Assembly (NCBI GenBank): GCA_017626305.1 | Contig: JAGAIW010000149.1 | Location: 1 to 54,162, forward strand | DNA: 54,162 bases | Origin: Clostridia bacterium | GTDB taxonomy: Bacteria > Bacillota > Clostridia > Christensenellales > Borkfalkiaceae | Direction: 5' to 3' | In this document: positions 16,109-45,655 of the stretch, one piece after another | How positions within the stretch are numbered: position 1 is the stretch's first letter | How the letters are laid out: every line of letters starts with the position of its first letter | The notes under the pieces: model-generated | Databases searched by the model: none | Told to the model about the DNA's origin: nothing | What the model saw: the letters and a program-made list of their open reading frames with translations, nothing else | Position numbers and translations under genes: made by a program

Positions 16109-16109
16109 T

Positions 16110-17750: not shown

Positions 17751-17769
17751 TGTTTTTCACTACCCCTTG

Positions 17770-22610: not shown

Positions 22611-22630
22611 GTATGATTTTCCTCCTTTTT

Positions 22631-29406: not shown

Positions 29407-30384
29407 TTAATATTCTTTTTTTATCGTATCGACAAATGCGGTAAATTGTTCTTTTACATCAAGCGGCGATATTATATGTACTTTTCCTCTCGATCCGATA
29501 ACCCAAGAGAAAAACGTGGGACTTATCTGAATTTGAACGAGAACTTGATATTTATCCCCTACCGTTTCTACTGAAACGTTCTCTCCGAACTTGTCATATA
29601 TATCGTCAAGCATTTCGGGAACAAACTGCAAGCCCACTTCTTTCAATTCCCCACCAAACATAGAAAACACTTGCATCCTGTATTTTTCCACGTTGAAATC
29701 CACAAACTCTTTTTTCTTTACAATACGCTCATCTTCTATCCTGACATCTTCCATTCGGTCAATTCGATAAGTGATTGTATTGTTATGATGATCGGGATAC
29801 GCTATTAAATAGTAATTATCCTTATTCCAAACCATAACAAGTGGATTCGTTATATATCTGTTTCCCTCTTTTCGGTATATTTTCTTCTTTTCCGCGTCAA
29901 GAGAATAATATAAGAAAGAAATTTTCTTTTGTTCGCTGATCGCACGATCAATGGCATCTATGCTATAAATAATTCGATTATTAGAACGTTTCGGTTCATC
30001 GTAATTTATAATGTTCTTTGAAATTTTCTCCGCCTGATGGTTTCCGATCATTTCTCCCAACTTTTGAATAAGCATTGATTTTTGCTCTAAACTTAATTTA
30101 GACGCCTTTATAACGTCGGCAAGCATAGCGATCTCTGCGGTATCAAAATGTCGATTGACTACGTAATAATAATGATACTTTTTCTTATACGAAAGAACTT
30201 CATATCCATACTTGTTTAATAAAGCAATATCCGAAGGTAAAACCTTTCTCGATACTTCGATATTATGCTTTGCAAGTTCGGCGATAATCTCATCGGAATT
30301 GAGTGCGTGATTTTCGTCTGTTAACCGACAAAGTATATCGTATAAAACAAGTAATTTTGCTTTTTGTTCTGTATTCCTTGACAT
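29407..30384 (-). CDS. WYL-domain transcription regulator (YafY/DeoR-like)
   Basis: 325 residues. An N-terminal HTH (LNSDEIIAELAKHNIEVSRK) is followed by the WYL domain, recognised by ISFLYYSLDAEKKKIYRKEG, NPLVMVWNKDNYYLIAYPDH and YRIDRMEDVRI. A C-terminal WCX-like extension follows. WYL domains sense small molecules or nucleic acids. It is the last gene of the glycan locus, directly after ribokinase (ATG adjacent to that stop), so it probably reports a sugar or sugar phosphate of the pathway. Confidence 0.85.
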   Translation of the reverse strand: MSRNTEQKAKLLVLYDILCRLTDENHALNSDEIIAELAKHNIEVSRKVLPSDIALLNKYGYEVLSYKKKYHYYYVVNRHFDTAEIAMLADVIKASKLSLEQKSMLIQKLGEMIGNHQAEKISKNIINYDEPKRSNNRIIYSIDAIDRAISEQKKISFLYYSLDAEKKKIYRKEGNRYITNPLVMVWNKDNYYLIAYPDHHNNTITYRIDRMEDVRIEDERIVKKKEFVDFNVEKYRMQVFSMFGGELKEVGLQFVPEMLDDIYDKFGENVSVETVGDKYQVLVQIQISPTFFSWVIGSRGKVHIISPLDVKEQFTAFVDTIKKEY

Positions 30385-31323
30385 TTAGCTTTCTTTTATT
30401 TTCTGATCTGATATACGTCCAATAAATTCTTCCACTTGCACTCTTGTATGCAACGAAGGAATCGCGCCTTTTTCCGTTACAGTAAGCGCCCCCATTGCGT
30501 TCGCAAATTGCACCGCTTCTTTCAGCGTTTTTCCTTCGGTCAACGCAACCGCCAACGCGCCGTTGAAACTGTCCCCTGCCGCAACGGTATCTACCGCTTT
30601 TACCTTATAGCCGCTGATAATTTCCACATTATCCTGCGTTGCAATCAATGCGCCGCGACTACCAATTGTCGCCACTACCGTTTTTGTGCCATAGGATAAA
30701 AGTTCCTTTGCTGCCGCAATTACTTCTTCGTCCGTATCCGTAGGCATATCCGTCAAAATGGAAAGCTCTGTTTCATTAGGCGTAATATAATCCACCATTC
30801 CGAGAATTTCTTTTTCCAACTTTACGGCAGGAGCAGGATTGAGCAAAACCTTTACGCCATACCCGTGTGCGCGACGAATAATTTCTTTCGTTACGTCCAA
30901 GCGGAGTTCAAGTTGTAAAATTACAAGTTCCGTTTCCTTAATAACGCTATCCACCTTATCAAGTTCATCAAAGCCAAACACAAAATTTGCCGAGGGAATC
31001 ACGCAAATACGGTTTTGTCCCTCTGCGTTGATTTGCACTTGGGCAACTGCCGTCGGTTTATCACACGAAAACACGTTATCCGCTTTTATCCCGTCTTCTT
31101 TCATTATCTTGCGAAAAACTTCGCCGTTAGCATCTTTTCCAAGCATACCGACCATTTCCACGTCACCACCAAGGCGAGCTACCGATACGCATTGATTGAT
31201 ACCTTTTCCACCTGGGAACAATTCCAAAGATTCCCCTAAAATCGTTTCCCCTGCTTGTGGAAACTTTACCATTTTCGCTACGTTATCCATAACGAACGAG
31301 CCGATTACCGTTATTTTCGACAT
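30385..31323 (-). CDS. rbsK: Ribokinase-type PfkB sugar kinase
   Basis: 312 residues. PfkB signatures: GGKGINQCVSVARLGG (residues 38-53), NPAPA at 162-166, TPNETE at 181-186, and DTVAAGDSFNGALA near 245, with Asp251 as catalytic base. Ribokinases phosphorylate O5 of ribose and also accept D-arabinose, giving arabinose 5-phosphate. That side activity would fit the isomerase gene directly upstream. Cytosolic. SD AAAGGAG lies in the end of that upstream gene. Another PfkB sugar substrate cannot be ruled out. Confidence 0.85.
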   Translation of the reverse strand: MSKITVIGSFVMDNVAKMVKFPQAGETILGESLELFPGGKGINQCVSVARLGGDVEMVGMLGKDANGEVFRKIMKEDGIKADNVFSCDKPTAVAQVQINAEGQNRICVIPSANFVFGFDELDKVDSVIKETELVILQLELRLDVTKEIIRRAHGYGVKVLLNPAPAVKLEKEILGMVDYITPNETELSILTDMPTDTDEEVIAAAKELLSYGTKTVVATIGSRGALIATQDNVEIISGYKVKAVDTVAAGDSFNGALAVALTEGKTLKEAVQFANAMGALTVTEKGAIPSLHTRVQVEEFIGRISDQKIKES

Positions 31324-31324
31324 C

Positions 31325-31906
31325 TTATTTTTGCTCCTTTTTTAACATTGCGCCAAGCGCGCCGTTGGGGTGGAATTTATAGAAATCTTCTCGTCTAAAA
31401 TTCTTTCTTGCCGAAAGCTCGCAAGCAATCGCGTCGCCCAATACCAAAGTCAACGTACTCGATACCGTCGGAGCAAGATTAAGTGCGTCCGCTTCCGCGA
31501 TCTTCGGGTACAATAAAACATAATCACACGCATTTGCAAGTTTACTGTCTTTTCCCGACGTAAACGCTACCGTAGCCACCCCATTTCTTTTCAAAGGTTC
31601 TACGTTCTGCACCACTTCTTGTGTGTTTCCACTGTTGGAAATTAAAATCGCAATATCTTTCGATTCGATCATACCTAAATCTCCGTGCATTGCTTCCGTA
31701 CTATGTACGTAAAAAGACGGAATACCAAGCGAAGCAAACGTTGCAGCAAGCTTTTCCCCAATATGACCGCTTTTGCCTACACCCATAAACACGAGCTTGC
31801 CTTTGCAATACTGAAATAAATTCAAAACCGTATCATATTGCTTGTCAGTTTCTTCTATCATTTGCGTAATCGCATCACGCTCTTTCATCATCACTTCTTT
31901 TAACAT
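31325..31906 (-). CDS. Single-domain SIS isomerase, KpsF/GutQ-type arabinose-5-phosphate isomerase
   Basis: 193 residues. SIS-domain motifs are GVGKSGHIGEKLAATFASLG (42-61), HSTEAMHGDLG (68-78), SNSGNT (90-95), LAPTVSSTLTLVLGDAIA and FHPNGALG (178-185). All match KpsF/GutQ/KdsD enzymes, which interconvert D-arabinose 5-phosphate and D-ribulose 5-phosphate. The CBS pair of the biosynthetic enzymes is missing. I see no Kdo-synthesis genes here, so a catabolic role is favoured. A hexulose-6-phosphate isomerase-like use is the main alternative. Confidence 0.85.
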   Translation of the reverse strand: MLKEVMMKERDAITQMIEETDKQYDTVLNLFQYCKGKLVFMGVGKSGHIGEKLAATFASLGIPSFYVHSTEAMHGDLGMIESKDIAILISNSGNTQEVVQNVEPLKRNGVATVAFTSGKDSKLANACDYVLLYPKIAEADALNLAPTVSSTLTLVLGDAIACELSARKNFRREDFYKFHPNGALGAMLKKEQK

Positions 31907-31912
31907 ATTACA

Positions 31913-32350
31913 TTACTCTCCTTTCTTTATCTTAAATACGTATTTTTTTACTTTCATAGACTCATCAATCGCTACACCCGGTTTATGTAAATCATCTACG
32001 TCCAATACTAAAAAGTTACTTCCGTCTAAAATATACGCCTTGGCATCGTTGGATTTATAGAAAATGATATCCTTTTGCGCGTCATATTCCGTCGTAGAGA
32101 TTCCCTGCTTAATATCCTGCACAAAGATATATTCTCTCCCACGCAACACAATTTGCACGTCGATATATTCCCTATGCGCTTCAAAATCCTTACCTGCACC
32201 CGTTTCGTATTCCGAAACCGCAACATAGCAATTCTCGTCGATTTCGTATTTTCCGTCGTCAAGAATTGTTCCGTTCTGCTTGTCCAAGAATTTCTTTACT
32301 CTTACAAGACTTGGATATTTACTTAAATTTTTAAGTGTATCGTAAATCAT
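31913..32350 (-). CDS. YhcH/YjgK/YiaL family protein (NanQ-type anomerase)
   Basis: 145 residues with the family core FEAHREYIDVQIVLRGREYI, later DIIFYKSNDAKAYILDGSNF and the closing HKPGVAIDESMKVKKYVFKI. The His and Glu residues of these blocks line a metal site in a cupin-like barrel. In E. coli the relative NanQ speeds anomer exchange of sialic acid before the lyase acts; other relatives go with beta-galactosidase or gulose genes. Its place beside an NAL-family aldolase suggests that it turns a 2-keto sugar into the anomer the aldolase uses. ATG overlaps the FucU stop as ATGA. Confidence 0.85.
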   Translation of the reverse strand: MIYDTLKNLSKYPSLVRVKKFLDKQNGTILDDGKYEIDENCYVAVSEYETGAGKDFEAHREYIDVQIVLRGREYIFVQDIKQGISTTEYDAQKDIIFYKSNDAKAYILDGSNFLVLDVDDLHKPGVAIDESMKVKKYVFKIKKGE

Positions 32351-32772
32351 AACGTACCTTTCTTTAAGATGATATTTGCATACAGCGCCTTTTCTCCCGT
32401 TTGCACAACGGCAAATGCGTTCTTCGCTCTATCGTAAAACGCATAACGCTCTAATTCTTCCACTTTCACGTTATCCGTTTCGTATTTTTTCATAATATCC
32501 TCGTACTCTTTCCAAATAGGCGGATTGGGTACGTTCTTTTCGGAAACCGCCATCAAAAGAGCGTTCTTTTCCGCAACTTTATCCAAGGGGAATAACGCCA
32601 AAATCGCTTCAAGCATATCCGTTCCGCTATGTCCGTCCGCACGCACTAACCGTTTCGCACAGGTTACGGCGGGGAAGTTCGCATCCGCAATTACAATTTC
32701 GTCACCGTGTCCCATTTCGCAAAGTATTTTCAAAAGTTCGGGACTGATAATTGGATTGATACCTTTTAACAT
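32347..32772 (-). CDS. FucU/RbsD-family sugar mutarotase
   Basis: 141 residues, the typical FucU length. The core MGHGDEIVIADANFPA (residues 20-35) has the catalytic His22, and ERYAFYDRAKNAFAVVQTGE at the C-terminus fits FucU better than RbsD. FucU enzymes convert anomers of L-fucose and related sugars, including D-ribose. D-arabinose has the same ring configuration as L-fucose apart from the methyl group, so it is a sensible substrate. No fucose isomerase, fuculokinase or fuculose aldolase is present, which speaks against plain fucose use. Confidence 0.85.
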   Translation of the reverse strand: MLKGINPIISPELLKILCEMGHGDEIVIADANFPAVTCAKRLVRADGHSGTDMLEAILALFPLDKVAEKNALLMAVSEKNVPNPPIWKEYEDIMKKYETDNVKVEELERYAFYDRAKNAFAVVQTGEKALYANIILKKGTL

Positions 32773-32774
32773 AC

Positions 32775-33722
32775 TTATTCTCCTATACCGATTTGTTTTT
32801 TAATAGAATCGCCAAGCGTTTTCATTTGAGCCAAACAACTCTTTTGGTATTCCGTAATTAAATTGCAATCTACCGCGCGGGAAATCGGCTCAATCTCAAT
32901 CCCTTCGTGAGCATTTACGTAATACTTTGCCGTCGCGGGATATGCCAAGCTTTCCGTAAACGCCGTCATACAAACAAACGCTTGCACGATTTCCGCTTCC
33001 TTTTTATCCGCATTATCAAAAGGCCACTTGTAAATTTCGGGGTGGAAATTCGCCATGACGCCACAATATCCGTCTGCACCTGCACGGAGCGTTTCCAAAA
33101 GCGTTTGCGCATTTGCGTTATAAAGACCTATATCGCAACCCTTTAATACTTCGATTCTTTCTTTAATCATTTCCGCGTCACAGCAGGTATCTTTAATAAA
33201 TGCAAATCTACCCGTCGCCTTGCACGCTTCAAGCATTTTCTTGGTGAGCAAACGCTTATAAGGTTTCGGACATTCATATACACCTAAAGGCATATTTGTA
33301 GGAATCTTCGCGATAAGCTTATGTAAATCTTCAATCCACTTTTCGTCCGTCGTGTTTGCAATATCCATACGGTTGGAAATCAAAATAAGCGCGTCGGCTC
33401 CAATTCCCGACATAGCGGTAAGTTCTTCTACTTGGTCTTCAAACGAATCGGAAACGTGTCCTGAAACAACGACTTTCATAGGCTTGCGAGTTTTATCCAC
33501 TTCTGCCAAAGCTTTCGCTTTTTCCACAACCGTTTTACCAATGTTCACTCTTTCTTCAAGCGTTAAAAAGAAAATTTCGCTCGATTGACAAACGGCAAAA
33601 ATCCCGTCGCAACCTTTTTTCCAATACCATTCCACAAGTGCTTCTACGCCCTTATAATCCACTTTCCCTTCTTTCGTGTATGGTGTTACCATCGTAGGAA
33701 ATACACCCAACTTCTTGTTCAT
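32775..33722 (-). CDS. DHDPS/N-acetylneuraminate-lyase family aldolase
   Basis: 315 residues from the ATG 8 nt after GGAGAAG; the frame also continues upstream without a ribosome site. Class I aldolase of the DapA/NanA superfamily: Tyr149 in VYECP and the Schiff-base Lys177 in FAFIKDTCCD. The usual T-T-G-E / S-T-G-E substrate block is CQSSE (45-49), so neither normal DHDPS nor normal NanA specificity is expected. Family members cleave 2-keto-3-deoxy acids to pyruvate plus an aldose. Between GH20, YhcH, FucU and a KpsF-type enzyme, a Kdo or related aldolase is the best inference. Confidence 0.85.
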   Translation of the reverse strand: MNKKLGVFPTMVTPYTKEGKVDYKGVEALVEWYWKKGCDGIFAVCQSSEIFFLTLEERVNIGKTVVEKAKALAEVDKTRKPMKVVVSGHVSDSFEDQVEELTAMSGIGADALILISNRMDIANTTDEKWIEDLHKLIAKIPTNMPLGVYECPKPYKRLLTKKMLEACKATGRFAFIKDTCCDAEMIKERIEVLKGCDIGLYNANAQTLLETLRAGADGYCGVMANFHPEIYKWPFDNADKKEAEIVQAFVCMTAFTESLAYPATAKYYVNAHEGIEIEPISRAVDCNLITEYQKSCLAQMKTLGDSIKKQIGIGE

Positions 33723-33750
33723 AATTTTACTTCTCCTTTTACCCAATTTT

Positions 33751-35580
33751 TTATACCACGTGTACAGTTGCATTGATTTTCCAATCGTTTAATCTCAACG
33801 GCTTTGTCGAATCTTCGCCCGTAAACGACAAAATATCTTCATCAAGCTCGTCAATCTTATCAATCTCGCCCAAAGTAAACTTCGTTAATTTTTTCAAGCA
33901 CGATTTCGTTCGGAGTAACAATCCGCCAAGCCGCAATTCTTGCACGTCAAACCCAAACGGCTTATTATAGTTATGCCATTGTTTTTCAAATGAAACGTAA
34001 AACTTTTCAATAAGCGGTATCAACTTTTCATAATCGGCAATAACGGCTTTTAACTGTTCTATATCTTTTTCTCTATATGCCGAACGTGTTCGAACGCCAA
34101 GATTATGTTTAATCGACAAAATACTACTCAAATCATACGCCGTTTCAAACAAATCCCCAAACTTTCCGCCTTTACAAACTGCCGCCAATTTGTTCTTGTT
34201 ACCATCATAGAAATCTTGTTCGACAAAAATATTTTTATCAAGCAAGCCGTTGAAATAATCGTTGTAGAAAACGTATTTGCTCGGATTACAAACAATATTT
34301 TGTTCTTTCGTTAAAATGTTCGGCGCATCCAATAAGTTAAAGGTATCGTATTCAATCCCCACTAAATTTAAGAATTTTTCTTTTACGTGGGCATTATCCA
34401 TACCGTAACTCGTTTCGCCCAAATAATACATTGACGTCAAGCTTGCAAAAATCGGACATTCTCCGCCACCGTCGCCCCAATCAGTATAAATATAATGCTG
34501 TACGCCATATTCTTTACAACTTGCCACGGAAGCATCGATTACCCCTTCTACAAAGGCGTTCATAGGCGAAAAACCTTGCCAAGCAAGCGTACCGCCGGCA
34601 AACCATATCTCATTCTTGAACTTCTTATGACGAGCCATCATTCTATCATAGCCCTTTTTATCGTTATTATAATAATGCCAATAACAAAGAGCCACTTCTT
34701 CAGGAACACCGTCGATTACTTCTTGCGTAATCGGTAAATCGGTATAATAGAATCCATCGCCAAGAAGCTTAAAGAACATATCGCTCCACATAATCGGCTT
34801 TAATCCGTATTTATTCGTAATGGCGATAACCTTTCTCAAATGCTCAAACAACAATTCGTAACGATCTCTATATCCGTGCTTATCAAAATATTTGCCAAGC
34901 CCGACCATGTGCGCTTCGTCAAAACCGATATTGATTTTCTTGGAGCGCACGCACGAGGAAATTTGACCGACCATCTTATCAAGCAAATTGTATGTAGCGT
35001 CTTCGCCCACCATTAAAATATCGTTACAATCGTTAATCGCTGCATACGGTTTCCAACGGAAGATGGAATTAAGGTGCGCGAGTGTTTGAATACACGGCAC
35101 TACTTCAATACCAAACGCATTTGCGTAATCGTCAATTTCACGAATTTCGTCTTGCGTGTATCTACCGCGCAAATACCCAAAATACGGTTCGCCTTTAAGC
35201 TCATACGTATCTTCCACGTAAAACTCTAATTGATTGTAGCCAAATACCGCCAAATAACGTATAAGCCGTTTCAATGCGGAAACCGTCATAACGGCATTAC
35301 GAGAACAATCAATCATTACGGCAAGCGTTTCAAACGTGGAAACAAACTCCCGATTTTCATTCGCACCTTTAACTGCTATCATTTCCCCGATTGCCTTAAA
35401 TATTTGATTATAGGACACATATTCAACGATAGCTTTTCCTTTTTCTTTTCGAAGTATAAAACGTTTTGAATTTCTCGTTTCTAATTCAATCGTTTCGCCT
35501 TCCGACAAAGGAAACTCCAAAGCAAGTTCGTCAAGCGCATATTGTAAGTTTTTATCTTCATTTTTAAGAATTATTTTCAT
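33751..35580 (-). CDS. Cytosolic GH20 beta-N-acetylhexosaminidase
   Basis: 609 residues without signal peptide. The GH20 barrel starts with VMIDCSRNAVMTVSALKRLI and has IEVVPCIQTLAHL. The catalytic Asp221-Glu222 pair is in INIGFDEAHMVG. Further barrel strands are KPIMWSDMFF and QHYIYTDWGDGGGE. It resembles the intracellular GH20 enzymes of streptococci (GcnA/GH20C type), which remove terminal beta-GlcNAc or beta-GalNAc from short glycans using the substrate's acetamido group. Cytosolic location implies that its substrate is imported by the ABC transporter encoded upstream. Confidence 0.88.
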   Translation of the reverse strand: MKIILKNEDKNLQYALDELALEFPLSEGETIELETRNSKRFILRKEKGKAIVEYVSYNQIFKAIGEMIAVKGANENREFVSTFETLAVMIDCSRNAVMTVSALKRLIRYLAVFGYNQLEFYVEDTYELKGEPYFGYLRGRYTQDEIREIDDYANAFGIEVVPCIQTLAHLNSIFRWKPYAAINDCNDILMVGEDATYNLLDKMVGQISSCVRSKKINIGFDEAHMVGLGKYFDKHGYRDRYELLFEHLRKVIAITNKYGLKPIMWSDMFFKLLGDGFYYTDLPITQEVIDGVPEEVALCYWHYYNNDKKGYDRMMARHKKFKNEIWFAGGTLAWQGFSPMNAFVEGVIDASVASCKEYGVQHYIYTDWGDGGGECPIFASLTSMYYLGETSYGMDNAHVKEKFLNLVGIEYDTFNLLDAPNILTKEQNIVCNPSKYVFYNDYFNGLLDKNIFVEQDFYDGNKNKLAAVCKGGKFGDLFETAYDLSSILSIKHNLGVRTRSAYREKDIEQLKAVIADYEKLIPLIEKFYVSFEKQWHNYNKPFGFDVQELRLGGLLLRTKSCLKKLTKFTLGEIDKIDELDEDILSFTGEDSTKPLRLNDWKINATVHVV

Positions 35581-35587
35581 AATAACC

Positions 35588-36892
35588 TCAAAGTTTTACT
35601 TTATGGAACGTAATCGCGTTCGTATTGTGGAAATCATCAGCTTTATTAAATCCTGTACGAGATAAAATATAAGCATAGCCATTTTCAATAAAGAAGCTGG
35701 GATATTGAAATCCCACTTCTTTGGGGGGCATATCCGCATAGTTTAACACGTCTTTATATACTTCCCAATGCTCGCCGTCAACTGACTTTGCAAGCGCAAG
35801 TACGTTTCTTGCGGGCGCAAGATTTCCGCAAGCATAATATACGCCGTCGTACTTTTGTATATAAAATTTCGTATGTGCGAACGGGAAGTCAATCATTTTC
35901 TCAAACGCAGGCGCACAATCAAAATCGTCAACACGTAAAACCATTGCTTGATTTTCACCATAACGTAAAATATCCTTAACCGTCCCATCAGGCATTTGAA
36001 CAAGATTGCCTTCGATTGCACAAGCTCCTTCTCTTGGAAGCTGTTCTGCTTCGTGTGTACGAGAAACGCAACCCGTCGTGTGCCAATTATCAACGTTCAT
36101 AAGATCCGCCGTTTTGTCTACCGAATATACGACTTGACAAAACGTTTTTGCCCAACAGCCGTATTCCACAGCAATCGCGAGTTTATCTCCCGTATCGAGA
36201 ATAGGAACGGGCGCTTTATGGAAACCGCAAATATCACCGAAGCTACTACCGCGTCCTAAAACAATCGGTTCACTCCAAGTAACGCCTTCGTCTACGGAAC
36301 ACCCTAAAAGCAAGTCGCCGTATTCTTTGGAACACGCAATACTATACACTTTGTTTTGATGAACAAACAACGTTCCCCAAAAACAAGGGTATAAATCGGT
36401 TACGTATTGCCACGTTTTTCCATCGTCAACGCTTTTGAATACCTTGGAAAGATTCTGCGGGTATTTCAAAGAAAATACGTCCATACTCACAAGCAACGCG
36501 CCCGAAGGTAAACGAACGATAGACGGGCTTGCAAGGAATCTACCCGAAAAATAATAAGCATTATCGTTCGGATGCAAGTAATTGATAACAATCCCCGGAA
36601 AATCCCCCGAACGAGCCAAACGGGTAATACTTACTTTACCGCCAACACGAATATAGAACTCATATTCTTTATCATCTTCCACATCGAAAAACGCCGTGTC
36701 TTTGCTACAAATCTTACAATTTTTATCCTTACCCGTTTCCCCATAAAAAACTTCACATTCCGTAAATGCGGCATAAGCCCATTCAAAAGAGATTTTCTCT
36801 TTTGACGGGCGTATGGCTAAAATTTCAGGTCTATCCTGTTCTATGTGGAAAGGGTTATAAGGTTTATAATCCCAATTCGCTTTTACTTTCAT
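35588..36892 (-). CDS. Cytosolic sialidase-fold (BNR/Asp-box) glycoside hydrolase candidate
   Basis: 434 residues, no signal peptide. Residues 1-95 look like a fibronectin-III-type domain. A six-bladed propeller follows: FLASPSIVRLPSGALLVSMD, Asp boxes SVDDGKTW (154-161) and SVDEGVTW (199-206), and a third, weaker SVDGEHWEV. The closing FQYPSFFIENGYAYILSRTG resembles the last blade of exo-sialidases. GH33-type enzymes remove sialic acid or the related 2-keto sugars Kdo and Dha. The full Arg triad cannot be proved by eye. Position next to GH20 and an NAL-family aldolase supports a role in releasing a nonulosonic-type sugar in the cytosol. Confidence 0.7.
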   Translation of the reverse strand: MKVKANWDYKPYNPFHIEQDRPEILAIRPSKEKISFEWAYAAFTECEVFYGETGKDKNCKICSKDTAFFDVEDDKEYEFYIRVGGKVSITRLARSGDFPGIVINYLHPNDNAYYFSGRFLASPSIVRLPSGALLVSMDVFSLKYPQNLSKVFKSVDDGKTWQYVTDLYPCFWGTLFVHQNKVYSIACSKEYGDLLLGCSVDEGVTWSEPIVLGRGSSFGDICGFHKAPVPILDTGDKLAIAVEYGCWAKTFCQVVYSVDKTADLMNVDNWHTTGCVSRTHEAEQLPREGACAIEGNLVQMPDGTVKDILRYGENQAMVLRVDDFDCAPAFEKMIDFPFAHTKFYIQKYDGVYYACGNLAPARNVLALAKSVDGEHWEVYKDVLNYADMPPKEVGFQYPSFFIENGYAYILSRTGFNKADDFHNTNAITFHKVKL

Positions 36893-36910
36893 AAAACAAT
36901 CCTTTTTCTA

Positions 36911-38818
36911 CTATGCAACGATACAAACAATTTCCTTATATACCGTACTGTTTGCAAAAGAACGCACAATAATCGTAAACGTCGTTCCGCTTTGAACGGA
37001 AGAATCTACAACGATATTCGCATTTTCCGTAATCGTTACACCTGTCGTCGCCGTTTTAAGCGATACAATATAGTTTCCCGTTGCAGTAATTACAAGTGTC
37101 GTCGAACCGTTTGCGGTTACGTTCAAAGTTTCCGTACAGGAAAGGGTAGGCGTAAAGCTCGTGTTCTTTAACATTGCTACGCTATCCGCAGTCACATTCC
37201 AAATCTCTTTATCAAACTTGGAATAGTCCGCTTTATAGATTTCGTCGTTCCCGTAAACTTCGCTGTCAATGATATTATCCGTGTTCGTCGGCAAGGAAAC
37301 AAGATTTAACCCAAAAGAATTGAACGCATAGCAGTTTTTCATCGTCGCTTGGTTACCCATATAGCCAACAATCGTACCATACTTGTCAATCGCTTGACCT
37401 TGCGTCGTGTTATATTCTTTACCTGCCGCAAGATTCATGTGAACTACACAATTTTCAATCGACGATTGTAATTGCATTTTCGTGATCACACCTGCAAGCG
37501 GATTATTCTTCGTCAACGCAGTCGTAGAGCCACTAATATTCATTTCCAAATAAATATTTTCAACGCGTCCTTCGCACCAATATACAAGTGCAGAGCCACC
37601 AAGATACATACTTGCATTGATAAGAGAAACGTTACGGATAATACCATTTTCACCCAATGTGCCGAACAAAGCGTTTTGCGTATTATTGCCCGCATACGGC
37701 GTATAGTTCATAAGCGCATATCCATTCCCGTCGAAAATCCCTTCAAATTCATTCTCTTGGGGATAATAGCTCGTATCTTTCGACGCACCTGTATTTGCAT
37801 AAGGAGCAATAGTCGATACTCTCGTCGGCTTACCCGAAGTTGCAAAATCAATAGATTTTGTAAGTACGTAGTTTGCCGTCAAATCGTTGGCAATATTCGC
37901 AAAATCCGTCGCGCTTGCTACGGGGATATACGTACCGAACGTCATTTCACTTTCTACATCGCCTACAACGCCTTTTACCGTAAACATACCCGATTTTGCA
38001 GTCGTCGTCAAAACTCCGTTGGAAAGACTTGCAATCGCACTATCCGAAACCGTCCATTCTATATCCGAAGCGTTCCCTGCAACTCCGTTTTTCTCATACG
38101 TATAATCCAAGGTGTACGTTTTGCTTAAACCGAGATATTTTTCAACTTCTTCAACACCGTTAATCGTCAATGCATATTTATCCGTAATGGAAACGGGCAA
38201 TGTTGCCGTAACCCCGTGCACAACGACGGAAATCGTGCTGTTTCCCGTTTTATTTGCTTTAATCGTTGCTTCGCATTGATTATTCGCAATCGTTGTTTCC
38301 GACGATACGATTTCAAGGTTTTCCGATTCGTCAACCGACCAAACAACCGTTGCACCATCCCCGTTCGTACAGGTCAAAACAACAGTATACTCGTCCGTTA
38401 CTTTCAAGCCAAGCTCTTCATCGTAAAAGTGCAAACTGATAGGCGGCGTCGTAACCGTGACGGTACAAGTAGCCGTTTTTTCTTCTACGGCAGCCGTAAT
38501 CGTAACCGTACCGACAGCAATAGCCGTTACTTTTCCCGTTTCGCTAACGGTTGCAATTTCGGGATTGCTACTCGTCCAAACAACATCTTCTTCGCTGTTT
38601 TCCACCGTTGCAACAAGCGTTTCTTCTTCGGGGATTTCAAGCGTTAAAGCCGTTTTATTTAAGATTATCGAAACCTCATCTTCGACCACGGATGAATTAG
38701 AACTATCCCCCGAAGTATCCGTACTGTTATCGGGAGTATTGTTACAACCAACAGCAAAAGCCATTGAGCAACAAAAAATTGTCAAAATAGATAAAATTGC
38801 CAATAATTTCTTTTTCAT
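36911..38818 (-). CDS. Lipoprotein with Big_2 Ig-like domains and beta-helix-like C-terminus
   Basis: 635 residues. Lipobox AVGC ends the signal peptide near residue 25, followed by a Ser/Asp-rich linker. Big_2 domains: ALTLEIPEEETLVATVENSE then VVWTSSNPEIATVSETGKVT, and two less typical units up to residue 295. The C-terminal 340 residues are GLUG/beta-helix-like (LFGTLGENGIIRNVSLINAS, RVENIYLEMNISG, SIENCVVHMNL, TMKNCYAFNSFG). This C-terminal module is shared with the 663-residue surface protein of the same locus. Probably a surface glycan-binding protein. Confidence 0.8.
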   Translation of the reverse strand: MKKKLLAILSILTIFCCSMAFAVGCNNTPDNSTDTSGDSSNSSVVEDEVSIILNKTALTLEIPEEETLVATVENSEEDVVWTSSNPEIATVSETGKVTAIAVGTVTITAAVEEKTATCTVTVTTPPISLHFYDEELGLKVTDEYTVVLTCTNGDGATVVWSVDESENLEIVSSETTIANNQCEATIKANKTGNSTISVVVHGVTATLPVSITDKYALTINGVEEVEKYLGLSKTYTLDYTYEKNGVAGNASDIEWTVSDSAIASLSNGVLTTTAKSGMFTVKGVVGDVESEMTFGTYIPVASATDFANIANDLTANYVLTKSIDFATSGKPTRVSTIAPYANTGASKDTSYYPQENEFEGIFDGNGYALMNYTPYAGNNTQNALFGTLGENGIIRNVSLINASMYLGGSALVYWCEGRVENIYLEMNISGSTTALTKNNPLAGVITKMQLQSSIENCVVHMNLAAGKEYNTTQGQAIDKYGTIVGYMGNQATMKNCYAFNSFGLNLVSLPTNTDNIIDSEVYGNDEIYKADYSKFDKEIWNVTADSVAMLKNTSFTPTLSCTETLNVTANGSTTLVITATGNYIVSLKTATTGVTITENANIVVDSSVQSGTTFTIIVRSFANSTVYKEIVCIVA

Positions 38819-38834
38819 TTTTTATTTTCCTCTC

Positions 38835-40757
38835 TTATAATAATTTCGTTCTCCAATCGGCAACAAGCGTTGCTATACTCTTATCTGCACCAGCCGCCGC
38901 ATTGTACTCTGCCCAACGATCAATACCAATCGCATTACAAATACTTTCAAATTCGTCTATTTTTTGAGCAATTTGTTCTTTCGTAAAGTAATCTTTCCAA
39001 AATGTTAATTGCCAATAAATATAAGATGTTTTTTCAGCGTCAATTCGATTTTTCAGCTTTTGATATAATGCGTTGTCCGTTTGTTTTAAGGGCGCTATCT
39101 TATTCAAAGCTTCTTCAATTATCAATTCTTGTTGACGCAAATATTCTTTCGTGAAAATTGTATTCTCGAAGAAATAGTTACCCCCTTTGTTTGCCGACGG
39201 GATAAAGCAAAGATTGTGTTCCCCGTCATTCTCCAACTTGGCAAAATACATCTCTTGCAATTCCAAAAGCTCTTTCATCGGCTCGTAAGCGTCTTTATAG
39301 TATGCTTTCATAAAGTCATCAATCAAATCACGGACGTTTTGCGAATAATTCCACATAAGCTCCGACTGCAAATATGCAAGCAAATCTTGGAAACCGCTTG
39401 TCCTCGATTCGCCTACGGCAGTATCAAAAATGTATTCGGCACCATACTCGTCTGTAATCTCATAATTTTTTGCCATATTCCCGTATTGTACAAAGGGAAC
39501 GAAATAATACGCATATTGAGCCGAATAGAACCGAGCGTATATCGTAGCGTTTACTTTTTGCCAACCTTCAAACGTTTGTTTTGCTATAGCATTACAATCA
39601 GCATTGTTAATAGGGTGAGAATAGCACGCTGTTAAAGGTGCAATAATGATAGAAACGTTATTCGCAGGATACACGGACGGATCCAAAACGTTTCCGTTAT
39701 CATCTACGGGCGGTACTTGCGTTTTTTGATACGCATAGGTAGCAAATTGAATTTTTCGCCCTTCCCCTTTTTCATCAAAATGCGCTTGCACAGCGTTTGC
39801 AACTTTATTTACAAACCGAACCATAACACCACTTTCTTTATATTTCAAAACTTGTGGAGCACAATTCGAACATTCGCAAAATGAATTATCATCTTGTTGT
39901 CCAAGCGTTACGATTTCTTCATTCGGATTTTCTTCCAAAAACGCAATAACGTTCTTAATCATTTCCGCCGTCATTTCTTCGTTTGTCAAGCAAAGCTGTG
40001 TTGCCTCAGCATCCGGAGAATACCAATCCCGATGTTTTTCATAATACGTTTCCTTTGGAATAAACGCAAAATGCGAATGCGTCCAATACGTCCAATTTTC
40101 CGTATGTAACATAAAACGCATACGACGGCGATACGTACTGTTATTCGTTATGTGATAACTGCTAATGGCACGGCGAGCAATATCGGGGACTTCCCGAATA
40201 TCCATATTCAAAAGCTTTATGTTTTTGCTTGGCGTAAATACGATTTCATCTACAGCATAAACCTTTGCTTTCAAATTTCGCTCAATAAATTCATACGTGG
40301 AATACAATGAACCGTAACTACTTCCACCAAGCAAAATCACGTCGTCGTCAACCGTTTTTACAACGTAACCGTCATTGCCTAAATCCTTTTTCCATTCGAC
40401 AAGATTTTCCCCAACAACGATAGACGTTTCTCCAATAGAAATATACTTACCACTGCTTGCCTCGGTAACCGTATCATCCGTAACAACGGGTAACGTCGTC
40501 CCCGAAGTATTTTCAAGGAAATAATTTAATTCACTTACGGCAAAATCAATCAAAGTATCCGTCGTAGCAGGAATTAAAATTTTATATTCGCTTGCTCCGC
40601 TTTTTACAAAATATCCGTCGCTTTCGGTTATTTGAGCCAAATGGTTTTTATCAATCGTCGAAGAAGAATCGTCATCTTCATCATTTTTACATCCTACGCA
40701 AGAAAATAAAAGCGAAGTTGCCAAAGCGATGATTGCAATATTTCTAAATTTTTTCAT
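38835..40757 (-). CDS. DUF4838 lipoprotein, putative glycoside hydrolase-like
   Basis: 640 residues. Lipobox SCVGC near residue 22, Asp/Ser-rich linker, then a GH67/GH20-like N-terminal domain (YKILIPATTDTLIDFAVSEL, GGSSYGSLYSTYEFIERNL). The DUF4838 core has REVPDIARRAISSYH, an aromatic block WTYWTHSHFAFIP and the characteristic QQDDNSFCECSNC. DUF4838 proteins are exported, common in gut glycan-use loci, and presumed to act on or bind polysaccharides; activity is unknown. It may carry out the first, extracellular cut of the target glycan. Its ATG overlaps the previous stop as ATGA. Confidence 0.85.
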   Translation of the reverse strand: MKKFRNIAIIALATSLLFSCVGCKNDEDDDSSSTIDKNHLAQITESDGYFVKSGASEYKILIPATTDTLIDFAVSELNYFLENTSGTTLPVVTDDTVTEASSGKYISIGETSIVVGENLVEWKKDLGNDGYVVKTVDDDVILLGGSSYGSLYSTYEFIERNLKAKVYAVDEIVFTPSKNIKLLNMDIREVPDIARRAISSYHITNNSTYRRRMRFMLHTENWTYWTHSHFAFIPKETYYEKHRDWYSPDAEATQLCLTNEEMTAEMIKNVIAFLEENPNEEIVTLGQQDDNSFCECSNCAPQVLKYKESGVMVRFVNKVANAVQAHFDEKGEGRKIQFATYAYQKTQVPPVDDNGNVLDPSVYPANNVSIIIAPLTACYSHPINNADCNAIAKQTFEGWQKVNATIYARFYSAQYAYYFVPFVQYGNMAKNYEITDEYGAEYIFDTAVGESRTSGFQDLLAYLQSELMWNYSQNVRDLIDDFMKAYYKDAYEPMKELLELQEMYFAKLENDGEHNLCFIPSANKGGNYFFENTIFTKEYLRQQELIIEEALNKIAPLKQTDNALYQKLKNRIDAEKTSYIYWQLTFWKDYFTKEQIAQKIDEFESICNAIGIDRWAEYNAAAGADKSIATLVADWRTKLL

Positions 40758-43756
40758 GATACTACCACCTTAAAGGTTTTCTTTGCATAGTTCCCGGCTA
40801 AATCCCGTACAAGGAAAACAATTTCATACGTACCTTTCTCGCTGAACGTCAACGTTTTATCTTTATAGATACGACAATCCCCTCGCGGATAATACACGTA
40901 TACTTCTACCGATAAATCTTTATCGTTATTATCCATAGCCGTCGCCACAGGTAAAGTTACCTTGTCCCCTTTTTTCGCCGTCATTACGTTCCACTCTACG
41001 TTCAAAATCGGGGGTTCTTCGTCTTGAACGTATATAGAATAAATCGTCTTATCAAAAAAGTTTCCACGCCAATCTTTCACAACGTACATAACTTTATAGG
41101 TTTGATAGCTGTCTGCTACAAATTCAAACCCTTTCTCTGAAACGTCCACGTTTGAATACAAAACGTTTTTTCCTTGCGATACCGTTACCGTTACCGTTGC
41201 TGATGGATCGATTCCGTCCGCCACGTATGCTTGGGGAACTTTCACCACGTCGTTTATTCCAACAAGAGTTTTGATAGACTCAGCAAGATCAAGTTCAGGC
41301 GCTAAAAGGTCTAACCCCAAGCCATTAAAAGATTGATTAGAAATTTTAGACAGGTAAATAGCTGAATCACCCGTTACCCCCTTAAATGCCATAGACACAT
41401 AAATTTTACCGCTGGGGAATCCTTCAAATTTCGTTCCATTCACCGTTTGTTTCAAAGAACAAATCATCGCACTCGCCGTTTCATCTTTAATGGACAACAC
41501 GTTTTTATTGTATGACAACTTAAACATATTCGTTGTCGTATCAAAGAATGATCCTTGCACCGCATAAATGCGCGAATCGTTACTCATACGTAAAGAACTC
41601 GTATCTTCTGTTTCATTTCCTTTTCCAATGGTAAGTGAAACCGCAATGTTTGAATCTACACTATCAGTAAGCGTAATTACGATACTTTGAAAATTATTTG
41701 CTTGTTTGTCAATGTCAAACCAAATCGCAAAATTATTTGCAATTAAAGGATTTACATAAGAAATTTCCGTATTTTTATTAAAAGAAATATGCAGTCTTGA
41801 ACTTATGTGGATATTTACGTCGCCACCAACGAATAATGCTGCATAATCCAACTTATTTTCCTCGTAGGGATCTATCAAGTGAATTTCTCTTTCCACGTAA
41901 TCGGAATGCGAACCGTCCACACTTTCCGCATAATATTTAACGTTAAGTTTATCGTAACCGCTTTGTATTTCGGGCGTATAGCTATCCCCCACAGAAAGTT
42001 CCGTTTCCTTTCCGGCATACGAAACAATGATTTTTTTGCTTGCTTCCTGCGGAATAGAAGAACTGCTGTAATCAATCGCCTCAAAATCCTTAAACGTATA
42101 AGCCATTTTAGAGAATAAATATTTCGGAACGTAGCCCACCTTAATAATAGGCTCGTCTTTTATTAACATTTCAAATGCAAATACTTGTTCAAATTGATCG
42201 CCTAAATAATCGACTGCGGAAACGACAAACTCATATTCGCCCGCGGTCTTGGGCAACCAACTTTCAGGGTTTTCCAAAACGGCGTTGCCCGATTTATCGC
42301 GCAAGAAAGTCTTCACAGCAGGAATACCCGAACCGCCTTCAATATTAGCGATAGGGAAAACAATTTCCTCTCCCACATAGTACGATTCTTGCAAATCAAA
42401 ACCAACAAGTTTCATCGTTTCAATCGAAGACTCAACAATCAACGTGTATCCGTCGTAACGCGTATTTCCATTTGCATCAGTACACGCGTACTGCACGTAG
42501 TATTCCCCTGCGCTCGTCGGCATAAATTGTATAACATTATTGGCTACGACTTCTTGCGTAGGCGTATTATAATTCTTATAAATCGTCGTTACAACGTCCG
42601 TTTGTTTCATTGCGCCTTGACATCTGTCATACGCTTTTGCGGGAAAGAGCGAATACGCCTTTCCAACTTCCCCTTTCGGCAAGTCTTGATTTTCATATTC
42701 GCCGAAATCAATATCAATAATAGGAGCTTGCTTATCGTCGATTACCTTCTTCGTTAAATCGTTTCCGTTAACGTTAAAAATCATAATATCCGCTTCGGCC
42801 GCTTTCAACTTTTCCAAGGAAACGTTTAACGTTACTTCGCCTGTTGTAAAACCATCCCAAAGCAACGATTCAATAAAATAATCAGAACTATCAAAATCCA
42901 CAACCAAACTACCTGCAACGTAAACGGCTTTTTCCGCATAGTCGTAAGCATAACTTAACGAACCGAATCCCGCTTCGTTTGCGCCCGTAAAGCTATGCGT
43001 AGCACCCGTACCCATACGGTATTCCGTTTGCAAAACCTTTTTCGTATGGTCGTAACCTGCAAGCGCTTGTCCTTTTGCCGCCGCACGCGTGAAACAATAC
43101 GCTTTACCCCAACTTCCGCGATAGGTTACGATACGTACCTTATTCGTACTATCGTAAATATCGGTTAAAGTAATCGTAATTTGCCATAAGTCTTCCACGC
43201 CTTCTTCTCTCGGAATAACACCAAGCGTTAAAAGATTATCCTTTTTCGTGTTTCCAGACAAATCAATTACTTTGGAATAATTTACGTTGCCGCCGTCCGC
43301 CGTAGCCGTTACTTTTAAGCCCGTTGAATCCAAGCAATAATAATCGGGCGTATTTGCTCCCGAAGTAATTTTCGCGTTATTCACAACCGTAAACGCGTCC
43401 GCCGACAAATCTGCGCTATTAAACGAATAGACTTCTCTATGTTGCTTGGAATCAATCGTTGCAGAATAGGAAATCCGATATTCGCCTTTTTTAGAAAGTG
43501 TAAACGTTTTATCCGTGATGACTTCTTGATCAGGATCGTACACAACGGTATACGCCTTATACCGATTCCCCCCTGATACAAATTCCGCGTTCGGCACGGA
43601 AAATTCCGTACCGAACGCGTAATATTCGTTAATTACGCTTTGCATTTCAAAAGACGTCGTTTCTGCCGCCGCTACGTTGACCACAGCAAGACAAATAGAC
43701 GCAAAGAAAAACACAAACGCACATATCAATGTTTTGACTTTATTTTTTATTTTCAT
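40754..43756 (-). CDS. Large secreted multidomain protein with Ig-like modules
   Basis: 1000 residues. Signal peptide to about residue 31 (FASICLAVVNVAAAE). Two lectin-like modules appear related: residues about 130-330 with DLWQITITLTDIYDS and about 640-830 with QSIVITLTDSVDSNI. Ig-like units lie between and after them, each beginning with D-x-x-x-P-x-I. The last is KKGDKVTLPVATAMDNNDKD, ending GTYEIVFLVRDLAGNYAKKT. No lipobox, membrane helix or sortase signal is visible, so it is either released or held non-covalently. Probably binds the glycan outside the cell. Overlaps the DUF4838 gene by 4 nt and follows the permease as TAATG. Confidence 0.75.
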   Translation of the reverse strand: MKIKNKVKTLICAFVFFFASICLAVVNVAAAETTSFEMQSVINEYYAFGTEFSVPNAEFVSGGNRYKAYTVVYDPDQEVITDKTFTLSKKGEYRISYSATIDSKQHREVYSFNSADLSADAFTVVNNAKITSGANTPDYYCLDSTGLKVTATADGGNVNYSKVIDLSGNTKKDNLLTLGVIPREEGVEDLWQITITLTDIYDSTNKVRIVTYRGSWGKAYCFTRAAAKGQALAGYDHTKKVLQTEYRMGTGATHSFTGANEAGFGSLSYAYDYAEKAVYVAGSLVVDFDSSDYFIESLLWDGFTTGEVTLNVSLEKLKAAEADIMIFNVNGNDLTKKVIDDKQAPIIDIDFGEYENQDLPKGEVGKAYSLFPAKAYDRCQGAMKQTDVVTTIYKNYNTPTQEVVANNVIQFMPTSAGEYYVQYACTDANGNTRYDGYTLIVESSIETMKLVGFDLQESYYVGEEIVFPIANIEGGSGIPAVKTFLRDKSGNAVLENPESWLPKTAGEYEFVVSAVDYLGDQFEQVFAFEMLIKDEPIIKVGYVPKYLFSKMAYTFKDFEAIDYSSSSIPQEASKKIIVSYAGKETELSVGDSYTPEIQSGYDKLNVKYYAESVDGSHSDYVEREIHLIDPYEENKLDYAALFVGGDVNIHISSRLHISFNKNTEISYVNPLIANNFAIWFDIDKQANNFQSIVITLTDSVDSNIAVSLTIGKGNETEDTSSLRMSNDSRIYAVQGSFFDTTTNMFKLSYNKNVLSIKDETASAMICSLKQTVNGTKFEGFPSGKIYVSMAFKGVTGDSAIYLSKISNQSFNGLGLDLLAPELDLAESIKTLVGINDVVKVPQAYVADGIDPSATVTVTVSQGKNVLYSNVDVSEKGFEFVADSYQTYKVMYVVKDWRGNFFDKTIYSIYVQDEEPPILNVEWNVMTAKKGDKVTLPVATAMDNNDKDLSVEVYVYYPRGDCRIYKDKTLTFSEKGTYEIVFLVRDLAGNYAKKTFKVVVS

Positions 43757-44640
43757 TAGCCTTTTAATCCTCCCATCGTTAAATTCCCCATAATCTTATT
43801 TTTGAAAATAACAAATACAACAAAAATAGGGAAACTGACCAACAAACACGCCGTCATTTGCATTGGAACGGCTGTAATTGCCGATTTCGGAGAGAATCGG
43901 AAACAATACAAACCATAAGCAACCGTAGGGTTACTCGGCAAGAATACCATCGGCGTTGTATATTCATTCCAATACGTAATAAACGACAATAAGAAAATTG
44001 CTCCAAAAGTTGTTTTCACCAACGGAAGCATAATTTGCGTAAAAATTTTGAAATGCGATGCACCGTCCATTAAGCCTGCTTCTGCATATTCCCAAGAAAT
44101 TGACTTAAACGCCGCATAGAATATCAAGAAATTAGATCCTAAGAAACTAAAACGCATAATAAACATTCCAAAGAAGGTATCATAAATTCCTAATCCTTTT
44201 ACGATTGAAATTTCAGAAGCGAGCGTTCCTACGGACGGCAATAACATAGCAACAATTACGAAGTTATAAATAAATCCACTAAATTTGAATTTATATTTCG
44301 CAACCGCATAAGACACCAAACAAGGCGCAAGCGTATGCGCAAACCCACATCCAAGTGCATAAATTACTGAATTGAAAAACATTCGACTTAAATATACGTC
44401 TTTTCTTCCCAACGAATCGTAAACAGTAACTTGTAATAAATCAAAAGCGTTGATATAGTTATCAAAAGTCCATACTTTGGGTAGACCGAATTTGTTGGTA
44501 ATAAAGTCTAAACGTTCCTTGAACGACGTAATAATTGCCCAGAAAGTAGGAATAAGCAAGCTTACCGTATAAAGCAACAACATAGACATACCGATAATAA
44601 GGAAAACCTTACTTGTTTTTTGTACTCCACCTTTACTCAT
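43756..44640 (-). CDS. CUT1 sugar ABC transporter permease, MalG-like
   Basis: 294 residues with six hydrophobic segments. The EAA loop that contacts the ATPase is EAGLMDGASHFKIFTQIMLP. N-terminal segment GMSMLLLYTVSLLIPTFWAI. Forms the inner-membrane channel with the other permease. The ATPase subunit is absent here, so a shared MsmX/MsmK-type ATPase encoded elsewhere is probably used, as for many Bacillota oligosaccharide importers. Confidence 0.93.
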   Translation of the reverse strand: MSKGGVQKTSKVFLIIGMSMLLLYTVSLLIPTFWAIITSFKERLDFITNKFGLPKVWTFDNYINAFDLLQVTVYDSLGRKDVYLSRMFFNSVIYALGCGFAHTLAPCLVSYAVAKYKFKFSGFIYNFVIVAMLLPSVGTLASEISIVKGLGIYDTFFGMFIMRFSFLGSNFLIFYAAFKSISWEYAEAGLMDGASHFKIFTQIMLPLVKTTFGAIFLLSFITYWNEYTTPMVFLPSNPTVAYGLYCFRFSPKSAITAVPMQMTACLLVSFPIFVVFVIFKNKIMGNLTMGGLKG

Positions 44641-44652
44641 ACTTACTCCTCC

Positions 44653-45639
44653 TTATTCCACACTCGGACCAAACCGTTCAAGCAAGTATTTGACCAAAAT
44701 CGTCAAAGGCGCAGCAATACACGTAAAAATTAACCCGGCTGCTGATGCCACAGGATAATCTCCAAGCGTAGCCTTACTACCTACGACTTTTACGAACAAA
44801 TAATATCCCAACGTTTGAGTATATTCTTGAGCGTTCTGTCCAAAGAAATTATAAAGACTTGCTTGATTTGTGAAAAAACCAGCAATACCAATAACCAAAT
44901 AGGTTGTAATCGTCGGGAAAATCAACGGCACAATAATTTTGAAAAATTCTCCAAACGTAGATAACCCGTCCAACTTGCCCGCTTCTATTAAAGATTCGTC
45001 AACGCCTGACATAGCCGTTCCGTAAATAATAAGTTGCGAACCAAAACCCGACCAAAGACAATAAAAGATTATCGTCGGAAAAGTATAAACGGGACCACTC
45101 AAAAGATTAGGGAAATCCGCCACCCCCATTTTTTCAAAAATGGCAGGAACTGCCCCTTCTACAAAATAGGCAAACATAATCGACGTTACGACGCCTGATA
45201 AGATTTGCGGCAAAAATAATATAACGCGGAAAAAGCCGGTTCCTGGTACTTTTTTATATAAGAAAAACGCAAAAATCAAATTTAACGGCAAACCGATAAA
45301 CACGCCGATTAAATACAGTTTCAACGAGTTCTTAATTGCGTACGGCATAACCGTTGTCGTGCTTAAACTTATAATAAAATCTTTGAAATTGTTAAATCCG
45401 TTCCATACGTATTGACCAGTATCAGGATTATACTTCTCAAAAGCGAGCTTAATTGTGTTTACGTTAATCCCTATGTAGAAAATACACATCTGCAAAATAG
45501 GAAGCGCCAATATACAAATATAAAATATTAACGCCTCCCGTTTTGCCGCGCTATGGGATTTTGTTTTTTTATTCTTTGGCGTAAGTTTTACGGAAATATC
45601 GTAAAAGAAATCCTTAATGCCGTTTTTAATCCCTTTCAT
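44653..45639 (-). CDS. CUT1 sugar ABC transporter permease, MalF-like
   Basis: 328 residues. A basic cytosolic N-terminus (KNKKTKSHSAAKREA) leads into six hydrophobic segments. The EAA loop is EAGKLDGLSTFGEFFKIIVP. The long first periplasm-side loop (KYNPDTGQYVWNGFNNF) is typical of the MalF/UgpA group. Works as a heterodimer with the MalG-like permease encoded downstream. Confidence 0.93.
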   Translation of the reverse strand: MKGIKNGIKDFFYDISVKLTPKNKKTKSHSAAKREALIFYICILALPILQMCIFYIGINVNTIKLAFEKYNPDTGQYVWNGFNNFKDFIISLSTTTVMPYAIKNSLKLYLIGVFIGLPLNLIFAFFLYKKVPGTGFFRVILFLPQILSGVVTSIMFAYFVEGAVPAIFEKMGVADFPNLLSGPVYTFPTIIFYCLWSGFGSQLIIYGTAMSGVDESLIEAGKLDGLSTFGEFFKIIVPLIFPTITTYLVIGIAGFFTNQASLYNFFGQNAQEYTQTLGYYLFVKVVGSKATLGDYPVASAAGLIFTCIAAPLTILVKYLLERFGPSVE

Positions 45640-45655
45640 CTTTTAACCCCTTTTC

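Follow-up and report, generated by a model that had tools for sequence, protein, structure and literature searches.

The closest described systems are the nan operons, which encode a sialidase, NanA, NanE, NanK and YhcH/NanQ and in which an ulosonate is cleaved to pyruvate and an aldose. The stretch of DNA analysed here (the window) comprises 54,162 nucleotides of a gut-type Clostridia bacterium of the Borkfalkiaceae (assembly GCA_017626305.1, contig JAGAIW010000149.1). It carries an operon that resembles the nan operons in having a sialidase-fold protein (SIA), a Schiff-base aldolase of the N-acetylneuraminate lyase (NAL) fold (ALD), a YhcH protein and an importer. However, no NanE was found, and genes for FucU, a KpsF-type isomerase and a ribokinase-type kinase are present instead. 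Moreover, the window aldolase lacks the GxxGE motif of NanA and the residues aligned to NanA D191, E192 and S208. With moderate confidence, the operon is proposed to serve the catabolism of an oligosaccharide holding 3-deoxy-D-manno-octulosonic acid (Kdo) and N-acetylhexosamine (HexNAc), which would make it a variant of nan-type ulosonate catabolism and not a new category.

Kdo aldolase (EC 4.1.2.23) is known as an enzyme activity, to our knowledge without an agreed gene; the reaction is the one proposed here for ALD, for which a gene is now put forward. In the engineered L-KDO aldolase 3lcw, an E. coli NAL with eight mutations, the NAL fold was turned to a KDO-type product as is proposed for ALD, but 3lcw is a laboratory mutant of NanA and serves an L sugar. 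The Rbl locus of Citrobacter rodentium likewise places a KpsF-like isomerase, together with a D-ribulokinase, in a catabolic pentose locus. There, however, D-ribulose is imported as such, the isomerase is dispensable, and the passages of the source drawn on here mention no aldolase or sialidase-fold protein (PMC12307932). D-arabinan loci with GH183 and GH172 are alike in that the same KpsF-RbsK pair stands beside such families in relatives of the window, but in them D-arabinose derives from D-arabinan and not from an aldolase. One described D-arabinan locus has a putative isomerase and a kinase, whose families are not stated in the part of the source used (PMC10509167). For the two-component Kdo hydrolase of Helicobacter and Francisella, no statement of the fold was found in the portions of the open-access literature covered. 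The first-pass annotation knew of no described operon of this make-up, and none was found in the open-access literature on Kdo aldolase, hydrolase and catabolism, subscription journals lying mostly outside the search.

Open reading frame, Pfam and NCBIfam scans confirmed the seven adjacent genes that had been annotated. They lie on the minus strand at 30385-36892, closely packed head to tail, and encode SIA, a GH20C hexosaminidase, ALD (a member of the dihydrodipicolinate synthase (DHDPS)/NAL family), FucU, YhcH, a single-domain KpsF-type isomerase and a ribokinase-type kinase. These genes are part of a longer minus-strand run (29407-47272) with an ATP-binding cassette (ABC) importer and a WYL regulator, in a genome of 2.55 Mb (189 contigs, 95% complete). 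In the proposed pathway, the importer would take up the oligosaccharide, GH20C would remove beta-N-acetylhexosamine in the cytoplasm, and SIA would free Kdo in the same compartment. YhcH may equilibrate the Kdo anomers before ALD cleaves Kdo to pyruvate and D-arabinose, a step suggested by context and residues. FucU would then equilibrate the forms of D-arabinose, the kinase would convert it to arabinose 5-phosphate, and the KpsF-type enzyme would yield ribulose 5-phosphate for central metabolism.

A Schiff-base aldolase is paired with a sialidase-fold protein, which argues for an ulosonic acid, and the D-arabinose module behind ALD argues for a five-carbon D-arabino product. Kdo is the best candidate because it is the ulosonate that gives pyruvate and D-arabinose, a reaction stated in PMC4412817. 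A NAL has been tried with D-arabinose, its activity being below that with D-mannose (PMC4016182).

ALD belongs to the DHDPS/NAL superfamily, and its top solved sequence relatives are DHDPS enzymes. The AlphaFold2 model (mean pLDDT 81.5, pTM 0.85) was compared with solved structures by Foldseek; the nearest were N-acetylneuraminate lyases, with query-normalised TM scores of 0.73-0.77 and mostly 17-20% identity. The engineered aldolase 3lcw (19% identity) was among the first 50 neighbours, and YagE was also among the neighbours. ALD reached no NCBIfam cut-off, those of the NanA models included. When E. coli NanA was aligned with the window protein and 45 homologues (46 rows), the Schiff-base lysine (NanA K165, window K194) and the catalytic tyrosine (Y137, window Y166) were invariant in all 46 rows, as was NanA T167. 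The GxxGE carboxylate motif is absent and CQSSE stands in its place, with S64, S65 and E66 in 46/46 rows and Q63 in 43/46. Furthermore, NanA D191, E192 and S208, presumably the contacts to the sugar tail, are A222, Q223 and V239 in the window; across the rows, D191 is replaced nearly everywhere by A, C, G, S or T, E192 mostly by Q or A, and S208 by V or I. Since the lysine, tyrosine and threonine are invariant while GxxGE and the three tail residues are replaced, the residues of ALD place it with the Schiff-base aldolases and lyases and outside the NALs.

Counting the window's genome each time, ALD homologues were detected in 34 of 391 genomes of the class (E up to 1e-30), 8 of 251 relatives (1e-40) and 5 of 398 genomes of the phylum (1e-50); four further loci were taken from named metagenome-assembled genomes. 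In its own genome the only match of ALD is itself (E up to 0.001). In a tree of 51 ALD rows, the window groups with loci L002-L005 in a five-row clade (support 100/98).

The neighbourhoods of ALD were tallied over 50 of the 51 fetched loci, with the window excluded and L104 left out; four genomes contribute two loci each, and ALD in L102, L109, L110 and L111 was located by tblastn. A relative of SIA lies within 10 kb of ALD in 16/50 loci, in one of which (L058) a GH20C relative stands beside the SIA-ALD pair. BNR_2 proteins of another kind are also found near ALD; Pfam confirmed them in L107 and L070, and clustering suggests them in others. In L073 (positions 4222-6400), YhcH, KdsB and ALD stand in a row, and KdsB scores 243 bits with the CMP-Kdo synthetase model (cut-off 155). 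This trio is perhaps a Kdo salvage set, and the presence of KdsB beside ALD is a further pointer to Kdo.

Two members of the window's own ALD clade are linked to FucI. L002 has the order FSA-ALD-FucI. The order in L003 is ALD-FucU-FucI-ribulokinase, and its FucI scores above the equivalog cut-off. The L003 kinase passes the ribulokinase cut-off but reaches only 36 bits with the fuculokinase model (cut-off 471), and no fuculose-phosphate aldolase was identified among the neighbours scanned, some neighbours being unscanned. The L003 set fits a route from D-arabinose through D-ribulose to ribulose 5-phosphate better than the use of L-fucose. Elsewhere, ribulokinase adjoins ALD in L053 and is in the same run as ALD in L062, and L064 has KpsF (37% identity) and FucU (29%) near ALD. 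In L050 and L112, the immediate neighbours of ALD include PfkB-type kinases (32% and 38% identity). The reading frame directly before ALD in L050 (L050:8099-9334) has 411 residues, of which the first 300 match PfkB/ribokinase models and the remainder AraC-type regulators, a kinase-regulator fusion. In genome G998, ALD shares its strand with a KpsF of 82% identity at a distance of 10 kb; BNR_2 proteins and an ABC importer occupy the space between the two. The full set there (L107:2-9608 and L119:22-600) consists of ALD, an IU_nuc_hydro protein, two BNR_2 proteins, the importer and KpsF; it is conceivable that it handles a riboside-and-Kdo substrate.

Of 45 genomes positive for ALD, 44 entered the phylogenetic profiles; G179 was excluded because its ALD is a fragment with a stop. 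FucI (PF07882) was present in 29 of 34 class genomes with ALD versus 92 of 357 without it (Fisher p 8.5e-12, with lifestyle and genome size uncontrolled). The association held with the two weakest cases removed or turned against it (p 2.5e-10) and when counted by genus (22/27 versus 60/196, p 5.4e-7, the genus overlap being counted by hand). FucI is absent from 8 of the 44 ALD genomes, that of the window included. A KpsF-type protein at E <1e-22, a cut-off chosen after the table had been seen, was found in 5 of these 8 genomes versus 1 of the 36 that carry FucI (p 2.9e-4), and the single FucI carrier, G829, has its KpsF beside KdsB, where it looks biosynthetic. FucU occurs in 22 of the 44 genomes. 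D-ribulose can enter the pentose phosphate pathway through AraB (PMC12307932), so the RbsK-KpsF and FucI-ribulokinase routes can both end at ribulose 5-phosphate.

Among 101 relatives, the KpsF-type isomerase was found in 5 genomes (E up to 1e-30). All five, the window's own among them, belong to the same genus as the window. Nine other KpsF loci were compared (L042-L047, L064, L119 and L121); seven weaker matches (26-29% identity) were left out, and L120 was set aside because its KpsF adjoins KdsB. GH172/DUF2961 was found in five of the nine (L042, L044, L046, L047 and L121), the first four from the window's genus, and DUF4185 (GH183) together with a LacI regulator in four of these (L042, L046, L047 and L121). 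RbsK adjoins KpsF in L043-L047 and L121, hence in four of the five GH172 loci, and not in L042 or L064, while L119 ends at a contig edge. The GH172/DUF2961 and DUF4185 families are exo- and endo-D-arabinofuranases (PMC10115798); GH172 also includes other activities, such as difructose dianhydride I hydrolase (PMC8605356). The five loci are candidate D-arabinan loci that would use the arabinose 5-phosphate route. The position of the pair beside D-arabinan hydrolase families is the strongest single reason for reading KpsF-RbsK as a D-arabinose module, and its predicted conversion of D-arabinose to arabinose 5-phosphate and then ribulose 5-phosphate is the best supported part of the proposal. By a chance estimate, 0.10 of the 14 KpsF-like copies would be expected inside 11 kb of ALD; three are found there (p 1.7e-4), but one of the three is the window itself. 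The first-pass annotation had drawn a route from a 2-keto-3-deoxy acid through D-arabinose to ribulose 5-phosphate; it is supported in part, by KpsF-RbsK beside D-arabinan families elsewhere, by the link of close ALD relatives to FucI, in one case also to FucU and ribulokinase, and by KpsF on the contig and strand of ALD in another family.

The SIS domain of the isomerase keeps KdsD K59, H88, E111, E152 and H193, which we take to be functional residues, in the window and in seven relatives. It has no CBS domains and falls short of TIGR00393 (186.7 versus 203.7 bits), matching only the SIS part of that model; because of the missing CBS domains and the unreached two-domain cut-offs it is classed only as KpsF-type. 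Its top solved relative is the single-domain phosphosugar isomerase 5uqi. In E. coli CFT073, the gene at L125:5610-6206, which encodes the residues aligned from 5uqi, stands with phosphotransferase system (PTS), MalY-like and dehydrogenase genes. Given this setting, a tie to Kdo does not hold for every single-domain KpsF protein, and other contexts exist. The kinase passes the ribokinase model TIGR02152 (320 versus 299.65 bits) but not NF008353 (285.7 versus 341). Human ribokinase has been employed to make D-arabinose 5-phosphate (PMC11591822). The A98G mutant of E. coli ribokinase gains activity on D-arabinose (PMC9604405); a gain of this kind was considered as support for the kinase assignment and dropped, as the window kinase, in our reading of the alignment, has Ala at that position. 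The KpsF-linked kinases of the window (30385-31323) and L043-L047 share a lid of the form A-V-(A/G)-Q-(V/I)-Q in 6/6 cases, unlike E. coli RbsK, and this is a possible mark of specificity.

The remaining genes were compared with characterized families. GH20C scores 162 bits with PF18088 and 48 bits with PF00728, aligns with solved N-acetyl-beta-D-glucosaminidases (E 3.9e-128 to 2epk, 2.3e-124 to 5a69) and has the catalytic Asp-Glu pair, with IGFDEAH aligned to IGMDEAH of 2epk. The presence of this enzyme suggests that the imported chain contains beta-HexNAc. Such a chain suits HexNAc-Kdo capsules or pieces of the lipopolysaccharide (LPS) core better than the pectin rhamnogalacturonan II (RG-II). 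RG-II had been listed as a possible source, but the fit is poor, since the substrates of GH20C are hexosaminides and RG-II contains no hexosamine. YhcH scores above the cut-off of its subfamily TIGR00022 (94.6 versus 45.5 bits), and FucU above that of the L-fucose mutarotase model NF011949 (144.9 versus 141). SIA has the six-bladed sialidase fold with Asp boxes in a model of modest confidence (pLDDT 66.7). In a weak alignment with NanI (E 7e-6) that begins after the first arginine site, E294 and R310 match the Glu and second Arg of NanI, to which we ascribe catalytic-site roles.

Several observations weigh against the proposed Kdo pathway. The FRIP arginine and the acid/base Asp are canonical features of GH33 sialidases. 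In SIA, the arginine is apparently absent, A121 (Cys in most relatives) standing there when the weak alignment is extended two residues past its end, and the acid/base site falls in a gap without Asp. Given this apparent loss and the modest model confidence, SIA may be an unusual glycosidase or may act on another ketoside. YhcH falls short of the N-acetylneuraminic acid (NeuAc) anomerase model NF040884 (73.6 bits, cut-off 160). E. coli KdsD has seven cysteines, of which the window isomerase retains C48 alone, and two conserved KdsD cysteines are predicted to be catalytic (PMC10448790). Compared with ribose, D-arabinose lowers the kcat of E. coli ribokinase by two orders of magnitude and raises its KM by three (PMC9604405). 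The link between FucI and ALD may stem from a glycan-foraging way of life; none of the 44 profiled genomes has FucI inside 10 kb of ALD, the nearest case being G003 at 19 kb. At a looser KpsF cut-off (1e-12) the comparison becomes 5/8 versus 8/36 (p 0.037), a weak complementarity, and the FucI-less ALD genomes G182, G218 and G327 have no KpsF match either. Finally, FucI, FucU, ribulokinase or KpsF is near ALD in only 6/50 loci, or 8/50 when PfkB-type kinases are counted; in the other 42 no such D-arabinose gene stands within 10 kb, the 22% PfkB match of L067 being disregarded.

The possibility was considered that the operon serves the catabolism of sialic acid, either NeuAc or 2-keto-3-deoxynononic acid (KDN), with unusual accessory genes. 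The sialidase fold, the NAL-like structural neighbours of ALD, the YhcH family and GH20C are all consistent with this. However, the three NanA residues of the sugar tail are replaced in ALD, and we know of no role for FucU, KpsF or ribokinase in the use of N-acetylmannosamine (ManNAc). NanE gave no match in the window's 95%-complete genome, NanK and other ManNAc epimerases not having been searched for. Among the 44 ALD genomes only nine have a NanE match, in seven of them on a different contig from ALD; in G042 and G479 the two genes share a contig but are over 400 kb apart. NanE beside ALD, which the first-pass annotation had named as a sign against Kdo, was thus not seen, NanK again lying outside the search. 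A sialic acid operon is improbable, the least probable of the readings weighed.

DHDPS-family aldolases also serve in the non-phosphorylative pentose pathway, and ALD might be a 2-keto-3-deoxy-pentonate aldolase in an operon for D-arabinose or D-arabinonate that also has a phosphorylative D-arabinose branch. D-arabinose genes are present and YagE is a structural neighbour of ALD; pentoses can yield pyruvate and glycolaldehyde via 2-keto-3-deoxypentonate (PMC6336799). This is quite unlikely, however, as no sugar dehydrogenase, sugar-acid dehydratase, DUF4185 or DUF2961 was found among the cluster genes scanned, and ALD relatives pair with sialidase-fold proteins, which act on ulosonides. A somewhat larger but still small chance is given to another ulosonate or Kdo variant (for example 8-substituted Kdo) that yields a D-arabinose-like sugar, or to a ribose-Kdo polymer with the kinase acting on ribose. 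Ribose-Kdo capsules exist, the kinase passes the ribokinase cut-off, and ALD and KpsF of G998 are accompanied by the IU_nuc_hydro and BNR_2 proteins. Nevertheless, the mutarotase is of the FucU and not the RbsD type, KpsF is not needed for ribose, and KpsF-RbsK accompanies D-arabinan hydrolase families.

The coordinates of the operon and its surroundings are collected in the table. We take the two permeases to be of the LplB type (44653..45639) and the YtcP type (43756..44640). The DUF4838 lipoprotein is possibly the extracellular enzyme that generates the imported oligosaccharide. The true start of ALD is probably near 33722. In 20/50 homologous loci, a relative of the AraC-family regulator is found no more than 10 kb from ALD. 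In the window, a terminator-like site, a pattern match only, directly follows the gene of this regulator (49624-49598). Scans for RNA elements and tRNAs gave nothing above the gathering cut-off. A conjugation module adjoins the operon at 13496-26133, with a VirB4-like ATPase (13496-16108), a VirD4/TraG coupling protein (22631-24913) and a MobL relaxase (24913-26133); because of this position, an integrative conjugative element may carry the operon as cargo.

Table. Genes of the operon and its surroundings in the window.
Feature	Position	Strand	Basis
AraC-family regulator (cupin and helix-turn-helix), possible cluster regulator, own transcription unit	49645..50526	-	Pfam
Probable solute-binding protein of the importer	45656..47272	-	position and lipoprotein-like start; no Pfam match
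ABC permease	44653..45639	-	BPD_transp_1
ABC permease	43756..44640	-	BPD_transp_1
Large (1000-residue) apparently secreted protein	40754..43756	-	DUF4625 match only, below cut-off
DUF4838 lipoprotein, GH67-N-like domain, possible extracellular hydrolase	38835..40757	-	Pfam
Big_2 domain lipoprotein	36911..38818	-	Pfam
SIA, sialidase-fold protein, candidate cytoplasmic ulosonate (Kdo) glycosidase	35588..36892	-	
GH20C beta-N-acetylhexosaminidase, cytoplasmic	33751..35580	-	Pfam and solved relatives
ALD, DHDPS/NAL-family aldolase, CQSSE replacing GxxGE, candidate Kdo aldolase	32775..33773	-	alignment, model, families
FucU-type sugar mutarotase	32347..32772	-	NCBIfam and alignment
YhcH/DUF386 protein, candidate ulosonate anomerase	31913..32350	-	Pfam/NCBIfam
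Single-domain KpsF/GutQ-type isomerase, candidate arabinose 5-phosphate isomerase	31325..31906	-	NCBIfam, solved relative, residues
Ribokinase-type PfkB kinase, candidate D-arabinose 5-kinase	30385..31323	-	NCBIfam, alignments
WYL-domain regulator, last gene of the run	29407..30384	-	Pfam

Beyond the window, the chances are about even that the Clostridia have a Kdo pathway, Kdo aldolase gene included, in which an exchangeable module, either RbsK-KpsF or FucU-FucI-ribulokinase, stands behind a new NAL-fold clade marked by CQSSE, and in which RbsK-KpsF also serves D-arabinan loci of the same genus. Kdo occurs in Gram-negative LPS, many capsules and plant pectin and should therefore reach the gut steadily; no gene-level account of bacterial Kdo use was found in the open-access literature searched. 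If the proposal is true, it would supply a Kdo aldolase gene that can be tested and a route by which bacteria use D-arabinose via arabinose 5-phosphate. It would also offer a marker of bacteria that live on the Kdo glycans of their neighbours.

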